DNA of 64,000 bases from Microthrixaceae bacterium (GTDB lineage: Bacteria > Actinomycetota > Acidimicrobiia > Acidimicrobiales > Microtrichaceae), in the NCBI GenBank assembly GCA_019694615.1, contig JAIBBP010000016.1, forward strand, positions 1-64,000, in the 5' to 3' direction. Made by a program: the position numbers and the translations under genes. Below are positions 7,113-36,531 of the stretch, piece after piece (positions within the stretch are counted from its first letter, which is position 1; each line of letters starts with the position of its first letter). The notes under the pieces are model-generated. The model searched no databases, had not been told where the DNA came from, and saw only the letters and a program-made list of their open reading frames with translations.

Positions 7113-10100
7113 TCAGGCGTCGATCGCGTTGGCCAGACGGTCGAGGCGTGCGAGTTCGTCCTCGAAACCGAACTCCACCGCTGTGGAGCGCGCACGCTCG
7201 ATGATGCCGGCGACCTCGTCAGCGCTGGCACCTGAGCCGAGCCTGGCAGCCACCAACGCACGCCGCGCCTTGGTGGCTTCATACGGAGCGCCCATACGAT
7301 CCGCCACAGCGATGGCATCCTCCAGCAGGTCAATCGCCGACGCGTGATCGCCCAAGAGGTGCGCCAACTGCCCGAGCGACGTGCGAACTAGCCCTAGACA
7401 CAGCGACCCTGAGGCAGAGATGCCGAGATGATCGCGGAACGGATCGAGTGACGCCCTGAGTGACGCCGCAAGATCGGTACGGCCGAGTTCGACGACCAAC
7501 TCGGCGATGCACTGGGTGGTCACGAGCCAGAAGTAGTCGAGCGGCGGCGGGTCCAGCCGGTCGAGCACCGCCATTGCTCCGTCGCGGTCGCCGGCGAGTG
7601 CCAAGGCCAGACCATAGGCACCGGTCCAGTTGGCGCCGACCGAGGACTCCTCGGTCATCGCGGCGAGCGCTGGAGCGAGCGCTCCCAACCGACCCGCCTG
7701 GATCGCGATCCCGCCGGTTTGAATCGACCAGGTTCCGGCCGTGTCGGCATGGGTGTCCCCGTACTCGGCGGCGAGGGCGTCGACTCCGGCCTGTGCGTCG
7801 CCGCGACCGGCGAGGATGTCGAGCGACAGCAGGAAACGCTCGACCAGGAACCGGAAGTAGAAGTTGTGGGTGGCGTCGGCTGCCGCACTGAGGTGTTCGA
7901 GAACGTTCCGGGCCGACGCGACGTCACAACGCTCGGCAAGGCCGATCGCCTCGAAGAACCCACCGAAGAAGGTCAGATCGGCGTCGCCTGTTGCGCGGGC
8001 GGCTCGGGCGACCTCCACCGCAATACGCGCCCGCCGATCCGACGTCGTCGGGTCCCACAACGACAGGTACTCGGCGACGAGGACGTTTCCGACGAGGTCG
8101 GGGCGACCGTCGGCCCGGGCGAGTGTGTGGGCCTCGTCGAGGATTGCGGATCGACGGGATCGGTCACTCTCGAACGTGAGGTGTGACGCCAATGTGGACA
8201 GAATGCGAACGCGTCGCGGGTCGTCGCCCGCGATGAGGTCCAAGGCGTCCTCGCACAGCTCGACCATGCCGGTGTCGGTTGCCCCGGCAACGGGGAACAT
8301 GGTCCCTGGCCAGATGCTGGCGATCGCAGTATCGGCCAGAAGGTCAGGGTCGCGCTGGCGGCGCGCCAGTCGTCCCGCTTCGTCGATGGCTTCGCGGTAC
8401 ACGACCAGCCCCATCCCGCGCTGGGCGAGACCGAGACCGAGCCACGCTCGTGCTGCGGGGGCGAGGTCGTCATGCCCGCGGTGGTAGTTGATCAGCGCCC
8501 GGTAACGGTCGGCAGCCGATTCGTAGGCGAGGGCTTCCAGATCCCGTCGTGCCGCCAGTTCCAGGTGTTCATTGCCCTTGTCGTCGACGCCGGCGCCGAA
8601 CCAGTGGCGGGCAAGCTCGTCGTGTTCATCGGGGAGGAGACGGTCGATCGCCTCGGCGATGCGGCGGTGCAGGAGTCGCGCTCGCGTCGCGCTCGACGTC
8701 TCGAGCAGTGTCGTCCGGACGATCGCGTGTGCGAATCCGAACCGTCCGGCGGCCGACTCCGAGACCAACGCAATTCGCTCCGCCGCTTCGAGCAGGTCCA
8801 ACACGTCCTCGGCCTCCTGGTCGACGACGGCTGCGAGGACTTCGACGTCGAAGGTCTGTCCGATGATCGCCGCGACCTGGAGCAGTTCGGCCGACGTGGT
8901 TCCCAGGCGGCCGATCCGCTGGCCGACGATGTCGCGGACCGAGTCGGGGATTGCGAACCGACCCGAGGGGTCGCCCTGAACCAACCGTTCGAGTTCACCG
9001 GTGGTGGCGAGATGGTGCAGGAGCTCGCAGACGAAGAACGGGTTCCCGGCGCCTTCGTCGCAGACCCGGGCGGCGAACGCGGAGACGTGGTCGCCGAGCG
9101 AGTCGTCGACCCGCTCGCGGACGAGGTCCGCGACGTCGTCCGGATCGAGCGGCCGAAGGTCGATTCGCGATACTGCCGTGCCCGGCCGGATCTCGGCGAG
9201 GAGTTCGTTCAGCGGGTGCCCGGGGCCGATCTCCTCGGCGCGGTAGCTCGCCAGCACGAGGACGCGGGCACCGGTCGCGTAGCGAACGACATGTCGCAGG
9301 AGCTGGACGGTCGGGGGAGTGGCCCAATGGAGATCCTCGAGTACGACGACCACCGGCTGGTCCTGTGTCAAACGCTCGAGCAGTTTGACCACCGCGTCGA
9401 ACAGATCGAATCGCGCGGACGGGCCCGATCCTCCCCGCTGCTGCCGGCGGCTGGGAAAGAGAGGACCGAGCGGTCCGGCCCCATCCGCGATCGCCAAGGC
9501 GAGATCGTCGTCGACGGAGCGGACCTCGTCGAACGCCATCGCGAACGGTTGGTACGGCACGTCGAGGTCGCTGTCACAGACGCCAGCGAGGACCATTGCG
9601 CCGGCGGCGTGAGCATGGTCGGCGAGGTGCGCGATGAGACGGGACTTGCCGAGACCAGCCTGACCGGTCACCAGGACGACACGGGTGAGCCCCGCCGACA
9701 CGTCCTCCCAACTCGCCAGCGCGGACAAAACGTCCTCGTCCCGCCCCACCATCGGGAACCGGCGGTCACCCAACACGGCGCGCGCCATCGGTCGAGCGTT
9801 CGCTGCGGTCCGTGTGTCGACGATCCGGACGACGGACACCGGGTCGTCCAACCCCTTCAGGATCCGTTCGCCGACCGACTCGAACTCGGCATCGACGCGG
9901 CGGGCGCCGAGGCGTCCGACCAGGTCGGTGCACCACACCTCTCCCGGTCTCGCGAGTCGCTCGAGACGTGCCGCCTCGATGACTGCGACGCCGTGGATGT
10001 CGTCGTCGTCGAAGCTGACCTCGCCAACGGCCAGCCCGATCCGGAGGGCGAAGTCGGCGACGGCACGGGCCGACCGCGCGTAACGCGCCACGGCGCGCTG

Positions 10101-10325
10101 GATGTCGAGCGCAGCGGACACCGCTGCCGACGCCGTCGCGAAATCTGCCTTCACGCCGTCGCCGGTCCAGCGGAGAATCCGTCCCTCGTGCGTAGCGATG
10201 CACCGGGCGAGGAGGTCGTCGTGGTCGCGGCGAAGCTCATCGGCACGGTCCTCGCCGAGGCGCGCCCTCTGCTCGGTCGAGCCCACCATGTCGGTGAACA
10301 GAATCGACCGAAGTGAGGTCGTCAC
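7113..10325 (-). CDS. Class III cyclase-like domain fused to AAA ATPase and helical-repeat region
   Basis: 1070 residues. Residues 1-170 form a class III nucleotide cyclase homology domain: metal Asp12 (LFTDMVGST) and Asp56 (TGDG) are present and Arg120 (AARLERLA) is kept. The usual transition-state Asn is Ile116, and the base-selecting Lys position is Arg52, so activity or specificity is doubtful. A STAND/AAA_16-type ATPase follows, with Walker A GQAGLGKS (221-228) and Walker B-like VVVVLEDLHWA. The remaining C-terminal part, about 550 residues, looks like TPR-type helical repeats. The GTG start at 10325 overlaps the stop of the upstream transporter gene (GTGA), implying translational coupling. 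It probably acts as a signal-sensing ATPase that may make, or only bind, a cyclic nucleotide. Confidence 0.82.
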   Translation of the reverse strand: MTTSLRSILFTDMVGSTEQRARLGEDRADELRRDHDDLLARCIATHEGRILRWTGDGVKADFATASAAVSAALDIQRAVARYARSARAVADFALRIGLAVGEVSFDDDDIHGVAVIEAARLERLARPGEVWCTDLVGRLGARRVDAEFESVGERILKGLDDPVSVVRIVDTRTAANARPMARAVLGDRRFPMVGRDEDVLSALASWEDVSAGLTRVVLVTGQAGLGKSRLIAHLADHAHAAGAMVLAGVCDSDLDVPYQPFAMAFDEVRSVDDDLALAIADGAGPLGPLFPSRRQQRGGSGPSARFDLFDAVVKLLERLTQDQPVVVVLEDLHWATPPTVQLLRHVVRYATGARVLVLASYRAEEIGPGHPLNELLAEIRPGTAVSRIDLRPLDPDDVADLVRERVDDSLGDHVSAFAARVCDEGAGNPFFVCELLHHLATTGELERLVQGDPSGRFAIPDSVRDIVGQRIGRLGTTSAELLQVAAIIGQTFDVEVLAAVVDQEAEDVLDLLEAAERIALVSESAAGRFGFAHAIVRTTLLETSSATRARLLHRRIAEAIDRLLPDEHDELARHWFGAGVDDKGNEHLELAARRDLEALAYESAADRYRALINYHRGHDDLAPAARAWLGLGLAQRGMGLVVYREAIDEAGRLARRQRDPDLLADTAIASIWPGTMFPVAGATDTGMVELCEDALDLIAGDDPRRVRILSTLASHLTFESDRSRRSAILDEAHTLARADGRPDLVGNVLVAEYLSLWDPTTSDRRARIAVEVARAARATGDADLTFFGGFFEAIGLAERCDVASARNVLEHLSAAADATHNFYFRFLVERFLLSLDILAGRGDAQAGVDALAAEYGDTHADTAGTWSIQTGGIAIQAGRLGALAPALAAMTEESSVGANWTGAYGLALALAGDRDGAMAVLDRLDPPPLDYFWLVTTQCIAELVVELGRTDLAASLRASLDPFRDHLGISASGSLCLGLVRTSLGQLAHLLGDHASAIDLLEDAIAVADRMGAPYEATKARRALVAARLGSGASADEVAGIIERARSTAVEFGFEDELARLDRLANAIDA

Positions 10326-12022
10326 GACTCGGCGGCGCGGTCGGCGGTCAACGACGACAGGTCGGGGCGGCGAGCCGGGAGCATGTCGGGTTCGAGATCC
10401 ATCGCATCGACGATGCTCCACGCCATTAGCCGTGAGGAGTCGGTTCCGGTCAGCGCGGTGAGAAAGTCGACGCGGTCGATGGCCAGCAGCGTTCCTTCGG
10501 TCTCAGCGGTCACCGTGGCGGTGCGGGGAACGTCGGCGAGAAGCGCGACCTCACCGAAAAACTCGCCTCTCCGAGCGGTTCGGACGTGGTTCCCGCTCAT
10601 GCAGACGTCGAACGCTCCGTCGGCCACGACGTAGAAGCGGTCGCCGACGTCACCCTGGCGAACGACGATGTCGCCACTGGGGACGCTCGCGGTCGAGGCC
10701 GCCCGCGCCACGGCCTCGAGGGCGAGCGTCGGGAGCGGACTGAACATCGGCACTCGGCGGAGCAGACTCATCTCGACCACCGGGACGTCCGCGCTGTCAT
10801 CGGCGACGGAGAGGCCCCTCGCCGACGCCGCCAGTACGAGCATCAGCAGCAGGCCCAGAGAGACGAGGGCACCTGCCGACCCGCCGAGTTGCAGGGCGAC
10901 CAGAGAGAACGCGCCGCCGGAGATCATGCCCGCTCCGGCGAGCAGTTCGCGGATCGTGAACACCGACCGGAGCGCCGAGGGCCCGATCGAGCGTTGCAAC
11001 ATCATGCGGCCCGCTCCGTCGAGCAGCGACCGGCACGCACCGATCACGGGGAGGGCGACGAATGCTGCTGCAACCGTGAGGAGCGCGCCGAACGCCACCA
11101 GCGCGGCCGCGGCGACCGCCAACGCGATGCCGAGTACAACCGCCAGTCGGGCGCGGCCCAGCACGCGAGAAGCTCCGAACAGCGCGATGACAGCCCCGAC
11201 CCCGAAGGCTGCTCCAAGGATCGCCGGGCCGGCGTCACCCAACTGGAGGTCGTCACGGGCGACGACGACGAGGACGAAGTCGAACGATCCGATGATGGCG
11301 TACTGCGCCCAGATGACCACCAACACGCTCCGCAGCCCGGGTCGTCCCCCGAGGCCGTGCCATGTCGCTGCGACGCCGCGAGTCTCATCCGCCCCATGTC
11401 GCGGTGGCCATTCGGTCCCCAGATCGACCGCGGTGATCGCTGCGCCGACGAGGCAGACCACGGCGCAGACGGCAAGAGTCGCCGGCGGCCCGCTGGACCA
11501 GAGCAGGAGCGCCGCGAGGAGTGGACCGATCAGAACCCCCGAGCCCTCGACCGACCAGATCCAGACATTGGCCGTGACGAGGTCGGTTGAGGTCTTCGCG
11601 TAGACCGGCATGAGCATGGCGCCGGTCGGTCGAAGTGTGGTGGCACCTCCGAGGGCCGTAACCGCCCCGGCGAGCATCACCCCGAGCGGAAGGTCAGCGG
11701 CTCCGGCGACTGCTGCGAGACCGCACCCGAACGACTGCGCCAACAGGCCAGCGAGGCGGGCCCGGTGAGCACCCGCGCGGTCGACCGCCGCCCCCGAGAG
11801 TGGCGCGGCGGCGAACGCGACAGCCAGGAGTCCGAGCGATGCCGCCCCGGTGGCCACCGAGCCGCCCGCGTCGTACACCGACACCAGCACAGCGATGATC
11901 GAAGCCCACTCGACCATCACCGCGGCGCCGTGGGAAGCGATCAGCCGACCGGTTGACGCATCGGGTAGCCGCGCTCGGACAGTTTGCCCGTCGCCCTCGC
12001 TCGTCGCCCCCCGAACGTCCAC
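10322..12022 (-). CDS. MFS transporter fused to a cyclic-nucleotide-binding domain
   Basis: 566 residues. Roughly 1-410 is a multi-helix MFS-type transporter with alternating hydrophobic segments. About 425-530 is a CNBD with the phosphate-binding cassette GEFFGEVALLADVPRTATV, where the Glu and Arg that contact the cyclic nucleotide are both kept. This suggests a transporter gated or regulated by cAMP or cGMP; the transported compound cannot be read from sequence. The start is a GTG at 12022, and the true start could be slightly downstream. Its stop overlaps the start of the cyclase-domain gene, so the two products are likely made in linked amounts. Divergent from the carboxylesterase gene. 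Confidence 0.83.
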   Translation of the reverse strand: MDVRGATSEGDGQTVRARLPDASTGRLIASHGAAVMVEWASIIAVLVSVYDAGGSVATGAASLGLLAVAFAAAPLSGAAVDRAGAHRARLAGLLAQSFGCGLAAVAGAADLPLGVMLAGAVTALGGATTLRPTGAMLMPVYAKTSTDLVTANVWIWSVEGSGVLIGPLLAALLLWSSGPPATLAVCAVVCLVGAAITAVDLGTEWPPRHGADETRGVAATWHGLGGRPGLRSVLVVIWAQYAIIGSFDFVLVVVARDDLQLGDAGPAILGAAFGVGAVIALFGASRVLGRARLAVVLGIALAVAAAALVAFGALLTVAAAFVALPVIGACRSLLDGAGRMMLQRSIGPSALRSVFTIRELLAGAGMISGGAFSLVALQLGGSAGALVSLGLLLMLVLAASARGLSVADDSADVPVVEMSLLRRVPMFSPLPTLALEAVARAASTASVPSGDIVVRQGDVGDRFYVVADGAFDVCMSGNHVRTARRGEFFGEVALLADVPRTATVTAETEGTLLAIDRVDFLTALTGTDSSRLMAWSIVDAMDLEPDMLPARRPDLSSLTADRAAES

Positions 12023-12177
12023 CGCATTGTCCTGTCCTGCCCCGACCCTCTCGGCCGCTGGCCGACGATACCGCAGCGTCGTCGGTCGAGATCGTGGGCC
12101 GGCGACACCTACGATCTCCCCATGTCGTCATCGGGGGCCGCGATCTCGAACTCCGCGTACGCGACGGAGGCGTGTCC

Positions 12178-13719
12178 GTGATCGTCGTCGACACGCCGTC
12201 GGGTGCGATCGAGGGCAGGACCTTCGAGTGCCATCACGAGTTCCTCGGTATCAGGTACGCGCAGCCTCCGGTCGGAGCTCTGCGGTTTCGTCCGCCCGTG
12301 CCGGCCCGCCGGTGGACCGGAACGTACGACGCGACGACGTTCGGAGCCCGCTGTGTGCAGCCACCGTCGATGCTGGCACCGCCAGGTGAGGCCCAGAGCG
12401 AGGATTGCCTCTACCTCAACGTCTTCGCTCCCATCGACCGCTCCTCCCCGGTGCCGGTCATGGTGTGGATTCACGGTGGGAGCTTCGTCACCGGGTCAGG
12501 CTCGATCGCCTGGTACCACGGAGCCCGCCTCGCTCGTCGCGGGGTCGTGGTCGTCACGATGAACTATCGCCTCGGGGCACTGGGCTTTCTCGACCTCGCC
12601 GGAATCGGCGGCGACGAGTGGGCGGGTAGCGTCAACCTCGGGCTCCAGGATCAGGCGCTCGCCTTTCGGTGGGTGCGCGATCACATTTCGGCCTTCGGCG
12701 GCGACCCGGATCGGGTCACGGTGTTCGGCGAGAGCGCGGGAGCGATGAGCACCTCCGCTCACCTCGCTCGTCCGGGGTCGGCCGGGCTCTTCCGGCGGGC
12801 GATCGCACAGTCGGGCGCTGCAGGTCACGTTCAGTCGGCCGAGTCGGCTCAACGGGTCGCGCGACGGGCGCTCGAACTGCTGGGCACCCGGCTCTGCGAG
12901 TTGACGGACCTGCCGGTCGAGGCTTTCGCCGGACTACCAGCGCTGCTCGACGCCGAGGACTCCGACCGCGACCTCCCGTTGCCGTTCCGTCCGACCGTCG
13001 ACGGAGTCGACCTCCCGATTGCTCCAATCGACGCTCTTGGGTCGGGTGCCGCGAGGACTGTTGACCTGCTCGCGGGAACCACGCTCGACGAGATGAACCT
13101 CTTTCGGCTGCTCGCCGTGCTCGGCGGTGCACCGGCTGACCTCGACGACGAGCGCTTGCTCCGGCGCATCGGCTACAAGCTCGCGGCCCGGAGATCCGGC
13201 AGTCCCGGCACCGGTGTCGAGCCGGCCGACGTTGCTGCGCTGTATCGCGAGGTCGTCGGGCCCGCGGCTTCAAACGCCGACGTCTGGTCGGCGATAACCT
13301 CCGACCTCACGTTTCGGATCCCAGCTCTGGAGATGCTCGACGCGCACGTGGCCGGCGGTGGGCGAGCATGGTCCTATCTCTTCGCCCACCCGTCCACGGC
13401 CTTCGGTGGGGCGCTCGGAGCGGCCCACGCGGTCGAGATCCCGTTCGTTTTCGACAACGTCCACCTGCCCGGAGCGGACATGCTGCTCGGCGACATCACG
13501 CCGGAGCGTTCGGTCTTTTCCGGCGACGTGTCGGATCGCTGGGCGACGTTCGCCTCGGCCGACGATCCGGCGATCTCTCTGACGGTTCCGGGCACGACGG
13601 AGGCGTGGCCGCAGTATCGGGCTGCGGAGCGAGCCCAGGTTGTGCTCGACTTGCGAAGTGGTGTCGTCGAACGCCATTGGGATGATTGTCGGACGATGTG
13701 GTCGACGATGACCGCGTGA
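12178..13719 (+). CDS. Type B carboxylesterase
   Basis: 513 residues, alpha/beta hydrolase of the cholinesterase/carboxylesterase type. Motifs in order: EDCLYLNVFAP (family signature), oxyanion-hole WIHGGSF, nucleophile elbow GESAGA, and late acid and His regions (an AAHAVEIPFVF segment carries the likely His). No signal peptide, so probably cytoplasmic. GTG at 12178 has GGAGG 7 bases upstream; another GTG at 12172 is too close to that site. Substrate unknown; likely short-chain esters. A NUDIX gene follows after 10 bases. Confidence 0.87.
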   Translation: MIVVDTPSGAIEGRTFECHHEFLGIRYAQPPVGALRFRPPVPARRWTGTYDATTFGARCVQPPSMLAPPGEAQSEDCLYLNVFAPIDRSSPVPVMVWIHGGSFVTGSGSIAWYHGARLARRGVVVVTMNYRLGALGFLDLAGIGGDEWAGSVNLGLQDQALAFRWVRDHISAFGGDPDRVTVFGESAGAMSTSAHLARPGSAGLFRRAIAQSGAAGHVQSAESAQRVARRALELLGTRLCELTDLPVEAFAGLPALLDAEDSDRDLPLPFRPTVDGVDLPIAPIDALGSGAARTVDLLAGTTLDEMNLFRLLAVLGGAPADLDDERLLRRIGYKLAARRSGSPGTGVEPADVAALYREVVGPAASNADVWSAITSDLTFRIPALEMLDAHVAGGGRAWSYLFAHPSTAFGGALGAAHAVEIPFVFDNVHLPGADMLLGDITPERSVFSGDVSDRWATFASADDPAISLTVPGTTEAWPQYRAAERAQVVLDLRSGVVERHWDDCRTMWSTMTA

Positions 13720-35347: not shown

Positions 35348-36531
35348 GGTCGTCCGGACCCGTGCTCATCGCAGGAGGCGGCACTGCTGGCCACATCCTG
35401 CCTGGCCTGTCGATCGCCGCGGCCCTCGTCGATGCCGGCCTGCCACGGGAGCGTCTCCGATGGATCGGGTCGGAGCGCGGCCAGGAGTCCTCACTCGTTC
35501 CACCATCGGGCATCGACCTCGTCCTGCTTCCGGGGCGCGGTATCCAACGTCGCCTCGCCGTCGAGAACGTCGGAGCAGTCGTCGGCTTGCTGATCGCCGC
35601 GGTCCGGGCTTTCTGGATCTTCGGTCGCCGCCGCCCAGCTGTTGTAGTCAGCCTGGGCGGCTACGCGAGCGTCGCCGCCTCGATCGCCGCGGTGATCTGG
35701 CGCGTTCCGCTGGTGCTCGCCGAGCAGAACGCGGTTGCCGGCGCGGCCAACCGGATGCTCGGGCGTTTTGCCCGGGCAGCCGCCGTTCCGTTCGACGACA
35801 CCGGACTGCCCCGTGCAACGGTCACGGGTAATCCGGTCCGCGACGAGATCCTCGCGCTGCGCGCCGCAGATCCTGAGTCGCTCGGTCGCTCCAGGGCTGC
35901 GGCCCGTCGACAGCTCGGAATGCCCCCGGACCGGACGGTGATCGCGGTGTTTGCCGGGTCGCTCGGATCGCGTCGGATCAACGAGGCGATCGCAGGTGTC
36001 GTCGACCGGTGGGATGGGCGATCCGATCTCCACGTCCACCACGTCGTCGGGCGTCGCGACTGGGCGACCTTCGTTCGGCCGCGCGCTGCGGACGCCGGCG
36101 ACGCCGCTGAGGGCAGCTCGATCTCCTATGTCGACATCGAGTACGAGGAGCGGATGGACCTCCTGCTCGCTGCGGCTGACGTTGCGGTGTGTCGCTCGGG
36201 TGGCACGACGGTCGCCGAACTCGCCGTTGTCGGCCTTCCGGCGGTCCTCGTGCCGCTTCCCATCGCTCCCAACGACCATCAGCGTGCCAACGCTGCCGCT
36301 CTGTTGGCCGCTGACGCTGCGGTACTGCTCGACGACGCGGCGTGTACTCCCGACGGCCTTGCCTCAGCGCTCGGACCGCTGGTGGATGACGACGGTCGTC
36401 TCGCTGCCATGGCGGTGGCGGCTTGGACGGTCGGCCGTCCGGACGCGGCGCGCGACGCTGCGGCGTTGGTGGCAGCGGCGGCGGGGCTCGACCTGCGGTT
36501 CGGGCCCGAGGTTCACGGAGACGGGCGCTGA
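35344..36531 (+). CDS. murG: UDP-GlcNAc:lipid I GlcNAc transferase
   Basis: 395 residues, GT-B glycosyltransferase. GGGTAGHILPGLSIA at the N-terminus, VVSLGGYASVAA, LAEQNAVAGAANR, FAGSLGSRRINEA, and the UDP-GlcNAc pocket CRSGGTTVAELAVVGLPAVL. Makes lipid II on the inner membrane face. ATG at 35344 overlaps the ftsW stop; its stop overlaps murC (TGATG). Confidence 0.95.
   Translation: MRSSGPVLIAGGGTAGHILPGLSIAAALVDAGLPRERLRWIGSERGQESSLVPPSGIDLVLLPGRGIQRRLAVENVGAVVGLLIAAVRAFWIFGRRRPAVVVSLGGYASVAASIAAVIWRVPLVLAEQNAVAGAANRMLGRFARAAAVPFDDTGLPRATVTGNPVRDEILALRAADPESLGRSRAAARRQLGMPPDRTVIAVFAGSLGSRRINEAIAGVVDRWDGRSDLHVHHVVGRRDWATFVRPRAADAGDAAEGSSISYVDIEYEERMDLLLAAADVAVCRSGGTTVAELAVVGLPAVLVPLPIAPNDHQRANAAALLAADAAVLLDDAACTPDGLASALGPLVDDDGRLAAMAVAAWTVGRPDAARDAAALVAAAAGLDLRFGPEVHGDGR

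Follow-up and report, generated by a model that had tools for sequence, protein, structure and literature searches.

In a 64,000-nucleotide stretch of the genome of a Microthrixaceae bacterium (assembly GCA_019694615.1, contig JAIBBP010000016.1; hereafter the window), the gene of a major facilitator superfamily (MFS) transporter with a cyclic nucleotide-binding domain (CNBD) overlaps the gene of a STAND protein with a class III cyclase homology domain (CHD). Do the two form a circuit in which a sensed signal alters the level of a cyclic nucleotide that in turn gates transport, as a first-pass annotation of the sequence had proposed, or are they neighbours with separate tasks?

Architecture of the gene pair

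Both open reading frames were found on the minus strand where the first-pass annotation had put them, and sequence inspection bore out the proposed start of the second gene within a GTGA overlap, in which the TGA stop of the MFS-CNBD gene (10324-10322) shares bases with the GTG start of the CHD-STAND gene (10325-10323). The features of the pair are as follows.

10322..12022 (-): MFS-CNBD transporter gene, 566 aa (ORF, Pfam, AlphaFold model, fold matches)
10916..11905 (-): MFS_1 domain, residues 40-369 (Pfam PF07690, 2.5e-12)
10454..10687 (-): CNBD, residues 446-523 (Pfam cNMP_binding, 4.6e-18; phmmer matches in the PDB to PKG, PKA and MlotiK1)
10508..10561 (-): phosphate-binding cassette FFGEVALLADVPRTATVT, residues 488-505, with Gly490, Glu491, Arg500 and Ala502 (homologue alignment)
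10322..10325 (-): GTGA stop/start overlap of the MFS-CNBD and CHD-STAND genes
7113..10325 (-): CHD-STAND-TPR protein gene, 1070 aa from the overlapping GTG (ORF, model, fold matches)
9822..10313 (-): class III CHD, residues 5-168 (phmmer 3mr7, Rv1900c and Ma1120; Foldseek Ma1120-Cat)
9978..9980 (-): codon of Ile116, at the transition-state Asn position (alignment)
9255..9752 (-): STAND NTPase core (AAA_16), residues 192-357, Walker A Lys227 (Pfam, 5.4e-24; fold match 6mfv)
7119..8690 (-): C-terminal all-helical TPR-like superhelix, residues ~546-1069 (predicted helical hairpins; best fold match a TPR STAND protein)

The transporter is assigned to the MFS by its fold and by a PF07690 profile score above the cut-off. 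A profile of the MFS part gave no matches to solved structures by sequence, and only the fold search gave any: in Foldseek comparisons of the AlphaFold model (pLDDT 90.5), this part matched VMAT, LmrP and SPNS2 (TMt 0.70–0.80), so that the carrier as modelled folds like a drug/proton antiporter or an exporter. The tail of the same model matched the CNBDs of MlotiK1, PKG and PKA. The binding cassette is intact, as had been claimed: the residues that contact the cyclic nucleotide, Glu491 and Arg500, are present, and together with Gly490 and Ala502 they are unchanged in all 30 diverse MFS-CNBD homologues that were aligned, which argues from sequence for kept nucleotide binding. The threonine that follows Arg500 (Thr501) does not discriminate between cAMP and cGMP.

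Divergent from the transporter gene lies a carboxylesterase gene (PF00135, window 11953-13719), whose first in-frame start codon falls inside the MFS gene and whose true start is probably further downstream. This arrangement could reflect shared regulation with the MFS-CNBD gene, or could hint at the carrier's substrate. Elsewhere in the window, ARAGORN calls a 97-nt tRNA-Ala(GGC) at 35710-35806; Rfam reports no tRNA in the window at its gathering threshold, and the call is probably false.

For the second protein, Pfam (AAA_16), phmmer and Foldseek agree with the earlier description of a class III CHD on a 1070-residue AAA/helical-repeat protein. Although PF00211 was not reported by Pfam for the CHD at E ≤ 0.001, phmmer aligned it with the solved class III cyclases 3mr7 (1.4e-19), Rv1900c (5.6e-15) and Ma1120 (5e-12), and the AlphaFold model (pLDDT 89 for the whole protein) showed the class III fold in Foldseek comparisons, with TMt 0.92–0.94 against Ma1120-Cat and 0.88–0.92 against Rv1900c at an rmsd of mostly 1.4–2.0 Å. 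There is a single CHD, and the protein is thus not of the tandem-CHD type of soluble adenylyl cyclase (sAC). The remainder has the make-up of a STAND NTPase, with an AAA_16/NACHT-like core, a Walker A motif and a repeat domain; its best fold match is 6mfv, with MalT and CED-4 also among the matches, and no DNA-binding domain was detected in the protein.

The cyclase active site

The alignment places D12, R52, D56, D109, I116 and R120 at the six catalytic positions of the window CHD. Both metal-binding aspartates (D12 and D56) are kept and the transition-state Asn is replaced by Ile, exactly as the first-pass annotation had read them; it had not mentioned that the Lys of the substrate-specifying pair is Arg52, nor that the specificity Asp (Asp109) and the transition-state Arg (Arg120) are retained. 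Asp109 was located through the Ma1120 numbering (D157/A164), in which the specificity Asp stands seven residues before the Asn position; the residue three before that position in the window CHD is Val, not the specificity Asp. The domain thus keeps four of the six catalytic residues, or five if Arg is tolerated in place of Lys, and lacks the combined Asn and Arg of a complete transition-state pair.

The exchange of Asn is shared widely. Across 22 homologous STAND proteins, this position is as a rule Val or Ile, and more than half of them also keep Lys and the specificity Asp. A sister subgroup is more degenerate at the active site, with Lys replaced by Asp or catalytic residues lost in several members, and the closest orthologue (G037) additionally has Glu in place of the specificity Asp. 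The nearest solved CHDs carry Ala (Ma1120) or His (Rv1900c) at the Asn position. Ma1120 is an active adenylyl cyclase in which Asn is dispensable, and restoring Asn (A164N) lowered its activity (PMC4215837). Since the substitution is family-wide and Ma1120 is active with Ala, Ile116 by itself is no argument for inactivity, and on the alignment it is a family trait and not evidence of decay. With the Lys-to-Arg exchange added to it, the window CHD is, as far as residues can tell, a possible and not a certain cyclase.

Cyclase genes recur beside MFS-CNBD genes

Conservation of the two-gene order in Acidimicrobiia, which the first-pass annotation had put forward as a check, did not emerge. A search for strict conservation of the window's gene order across the genomes searched found none; the orthologous pair occurs elsewhere only in G037 (42% and 54% identity), where the genes are convergent and 33 bp apart. 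G209 and L139 hold two of the MFS-CNBDs that come closest to that of the window, but neither is accompanied by a CHD; what follows them is a membrane protein of ~212 aa, not a cyclase. This protein (L069 7191-7832 and L139 9678-10310) is conserved between the two and has no Pfam match.

We therefore turned from gene order to gene content, and counted as a neighbour any CHD gene within 200 bp of a full-length MFS-CNBD gene, across 52 loci collected by whole-genome searches (one related-loci search was seeded with a close three-sequence alignment). An immediate CHD neighbour was present at nine loci (the window, G037, G036, G009, G047, G618, G634, G528 and G511) and absent from the other 43. From the CHD counts of each genome, the expected number of such neighbours is 0.3, or 0.65 with a floor of 20 CHDs set for each genome; if the loci are taken as independent, the probability of the excess is ~1e-9 to 5e-7. 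None of 40 control loci (20 MFS-only and 20 CNBD-only) had a CHD neighbour, and the census differs from these controls with the window left out (Fisher p=0.007). Since relatives are not independent, we collapsed kin before repeating the control comparison, which left ~5 independent lineages besides the window and a borderline difference (p=0.04).

The arrangement of the CHD gene differs by locus (downstream overlapping, upstream, convergent or divergent), and the arrangements are scattered over a tree of 67 MFS-CNBDs. The partner cyclases are not orthologous and fall into at least four architectures: CHD-AAA_16 STAND, CHD-NB-ARC STAND, twin-CHD sAC-like STAND and membrane-anchored CHD. The CHD-NB-ARC STAND partners carry canonical catalytic residues, and in partners other than the window's that occupy the equivalent place, the catalytic set is either complete or split. 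Twin CHDs were found in G047, G618, G622, G437 and G540. At one locus on a named contig (L146), two MFS-CNBD genes are followed by a REC-CHD gene. Adjacent duplicated MFS-CNBD genes were seen at L403 (6038-9284), L146 (7947-11286) and L128 (4038-9657); those of L146 overlap each other and lie upstream of the response-regulator-cyclase.

Outside the class, in other classes of the same phylum, two of 26 further MFS-CNBD loci have an immediate CHD, against ~0.4 expected on an estimate that counts CHD-rich genomes. In one (G804) the CHD is divergent; in the other (G1020) the MFS-CNBD gene overlaps by ATGA the sole CHD detected in that genome. These genomes are rich in CHD genes, which are common in the phylum (as many as 49 in one genome), so that the replication is weak when taken alone.

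A second family of CNBD-fused carriers

A search for relatives of the window STAND protein led to SulP-STAS-CNBD transporters. In G437, a STAND protein 37% identical to the window's is encoded by a gene that overlaps a SulP-STAS-CNBD carrier gene by GTGA, and in G540 a CHD-STAND gene and a SulP-STAS-CNBD gene are separated by 46 bp. In G511 and G528, the order is SulP-STAS-CNBD, CHD-STAND, MFS-CNBD. Beyond G437, three SulP-CNBD loci (G540, G511 and G528) thus have an immediate CHD, against ~0.08 expected if each genome is assumed to hold 8 CHDs. The pairs of G437 and G540 lie at L294 1161-6985 and L326 2180-8116, with STAND proteins 33–37% identical to the window's, and same-strand clusters of three genes, with one cyclase gene between two CNBD-fused carriers, lie at L127 5070-11859 and L341 1494-8227.

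Competing explanations of the pairing

That the genes adjoin by chance, in a genome with many signalling genes, is very improbable: CHD genes are common in the phylum, but the host genome has only six, and the explanation was rejected on the empty control loci and on nine neighbours where 0.3 to 0.65 were expected, with about five independent lineages left after kin are collapsed. The pairing of the window's MFS-CNBD and CHD-STAND genes is not a chance juxtaposition. A more substantial alternative is that the two are co-regulated neighbours only, the STAND protein regulating unrelated targets and the overlap serving co-expression with no cyclic-nucleotide circuit. The rarity and changing orientation of the orthologous pair fit this, as does a relative in G035 that has an MFS gene without a CNBD next to the STAND gene; beside most relatives of the window STAND protein no CNBD protein was seen, within flanks that for most of them spanned 1.5 kb. 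Co-expression would, however, leave unexplained why cyclases that are not orthologous recur beside MFS-CNBD genes, why the same STAND family recurs beside SulP-STAS-CNBD genes, and why the control loci lack CHDs, and we regard it as improbable.

A further alternative is a pseudo-cyclase. Here the CHD would bind a nucleotide-metal complex without cyclising it, the STAND protein would act on the transporter directly or via other proteins, and the CNBD would read global cAMP made by other cyclases. The host genome encodes 11 CNBDs, and three of its five other CHDs keep both Asn and Arg, so the CNBD could read a global cyclic-nucleotide pool too. (On contig C92 of the host genome, at L248 3720-9400, genes for a CRP-like CNBD-HTH protein and other CNBD proteins lie a few kb from a sAC-like twin-CHD STAND gene.) The Arg and Ile of the window CHD are in keeping with such a sensor, as is the erosion in sister STAND proteins, including those paired with SulP carriers in G437 and G540. 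Set against this, the window CHD keeps both metal aspartates, the specificity Asp and Arg; about half of its family is changed only at Asn, as is the active Ma1120; and the catalytic sets of partner CHDs at equivalent positions are complete or split. We consider a pseudo-cyclase unlikely, though less so than mere co-regulation.

The reading that we favour, at a probability of about 0.48 and from gene content and residues, is that the pair may be a dedicated cyclic-nucleotide-controlled transport module of a CNBD carrier and a cyclase-type STAND sensor. The STAND NTPase switch and the TPR-like sensor surface would detect a signal, upon which the protein would probably oligomerise and so let its N-terminal CHDs dimerise. 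This dimer would make a cyclic nucleotide, most likely cAMP, close to the transporter, and its binding to the C-terminal cytosolic CNBD might open, close or tune the MFS carrier. Such a local circuit, from STAND sensor through CHD dimer, cyclic nucleotide and CNBD to carrier, is the most economical reading. Carrier and STAND cyclase probably cooperate, because related bacteria have repeatedly set varied cyclases beside CNBD-bearing transporters. Conservation of the gene order in the class is not supported; that class III cyclases and transporters with a fused CNBD are functionally linked is supported at the level of genes, since non-orthologous cyclases recur, a second transporter family (SulP-STAS-CNBD) joins in and the CNBD binding residues are unchanged.

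Relation to known systems

The closest counterpart of the arrangement is in animal sperm, where a CNBD transporter, SLC9C1 (sNHE), is functionally tied to a soluble cyclase, sAC (ADCY10). Soluble adenylyl cyclase joins two CHDs to an NTPase in one protein. In SLC9C1, a CNBD-fused exchanger, cAMP shifts exchange directly, and there is evidence of a physical interaction with sAC (PMC6052114). The window transporter differs in having an MFS carrier and neither an NHE exchanger domain nor a voltage sensor, and is thus not of the SLC9C1 type. Its partner differs from sAC in having one CHD instead of two, with Lys and Asn changed; sAC-like twin CHDs are present in the bacterial partners of G047 and G618. 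The mycobacterial Ma1120 and Rv1900c (LipJ), the nearest solved CHDs by fold and, with 3mr7, by sequence, also lack Asn, but their solved chains have no STAND/TPR architecture, and Ma1120 keeps the Lys where the window CHD has Arg. The NTPase core and helical superhelix are shared with the TPR-bearing STAND NTPases 6mfv and MalT (8bob), which form one fold class with the window protein in Foldseek, while the N-terminal CHD is an addition. Bacterial channels gated by a CNBD, such as MlotiK1, give some of the nearest matches to the CNBD fold and likewise carry this domain C-terminal to the membrane part, which in MlotiK1 is a channel and in the window a secondary transporter.

Bacterial cAMP has been studied mostly as a transcription signal acting through CRP. 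We found no earlier description of a pairing of cyclases with CNBD-fused transporters in the literature searched, which leaves out most subscription journals. Tentatively, and with more doubt than for the window pair itself, Actinobacteria may hold a general class of local second-messenger modules, in which MFS or SulP carriers with CNBDs are gated by a dedicated adjoining cyclase, often a cyclase-STAND protein, as a counterpart of sperm SLC9C1-sAC whose cyclase has been swapped repeatedly in evolution. The recurrent pairing suggests that cyclic nucleotides gate transport directly and fast, and that the neighbouring gene supplies the sensor. It makes local bacterial cAMP signalling testable in two-gene systems, and the pair offers a simple model for CNBD-gated carriers, which have so far been best documented for SLC9C1.
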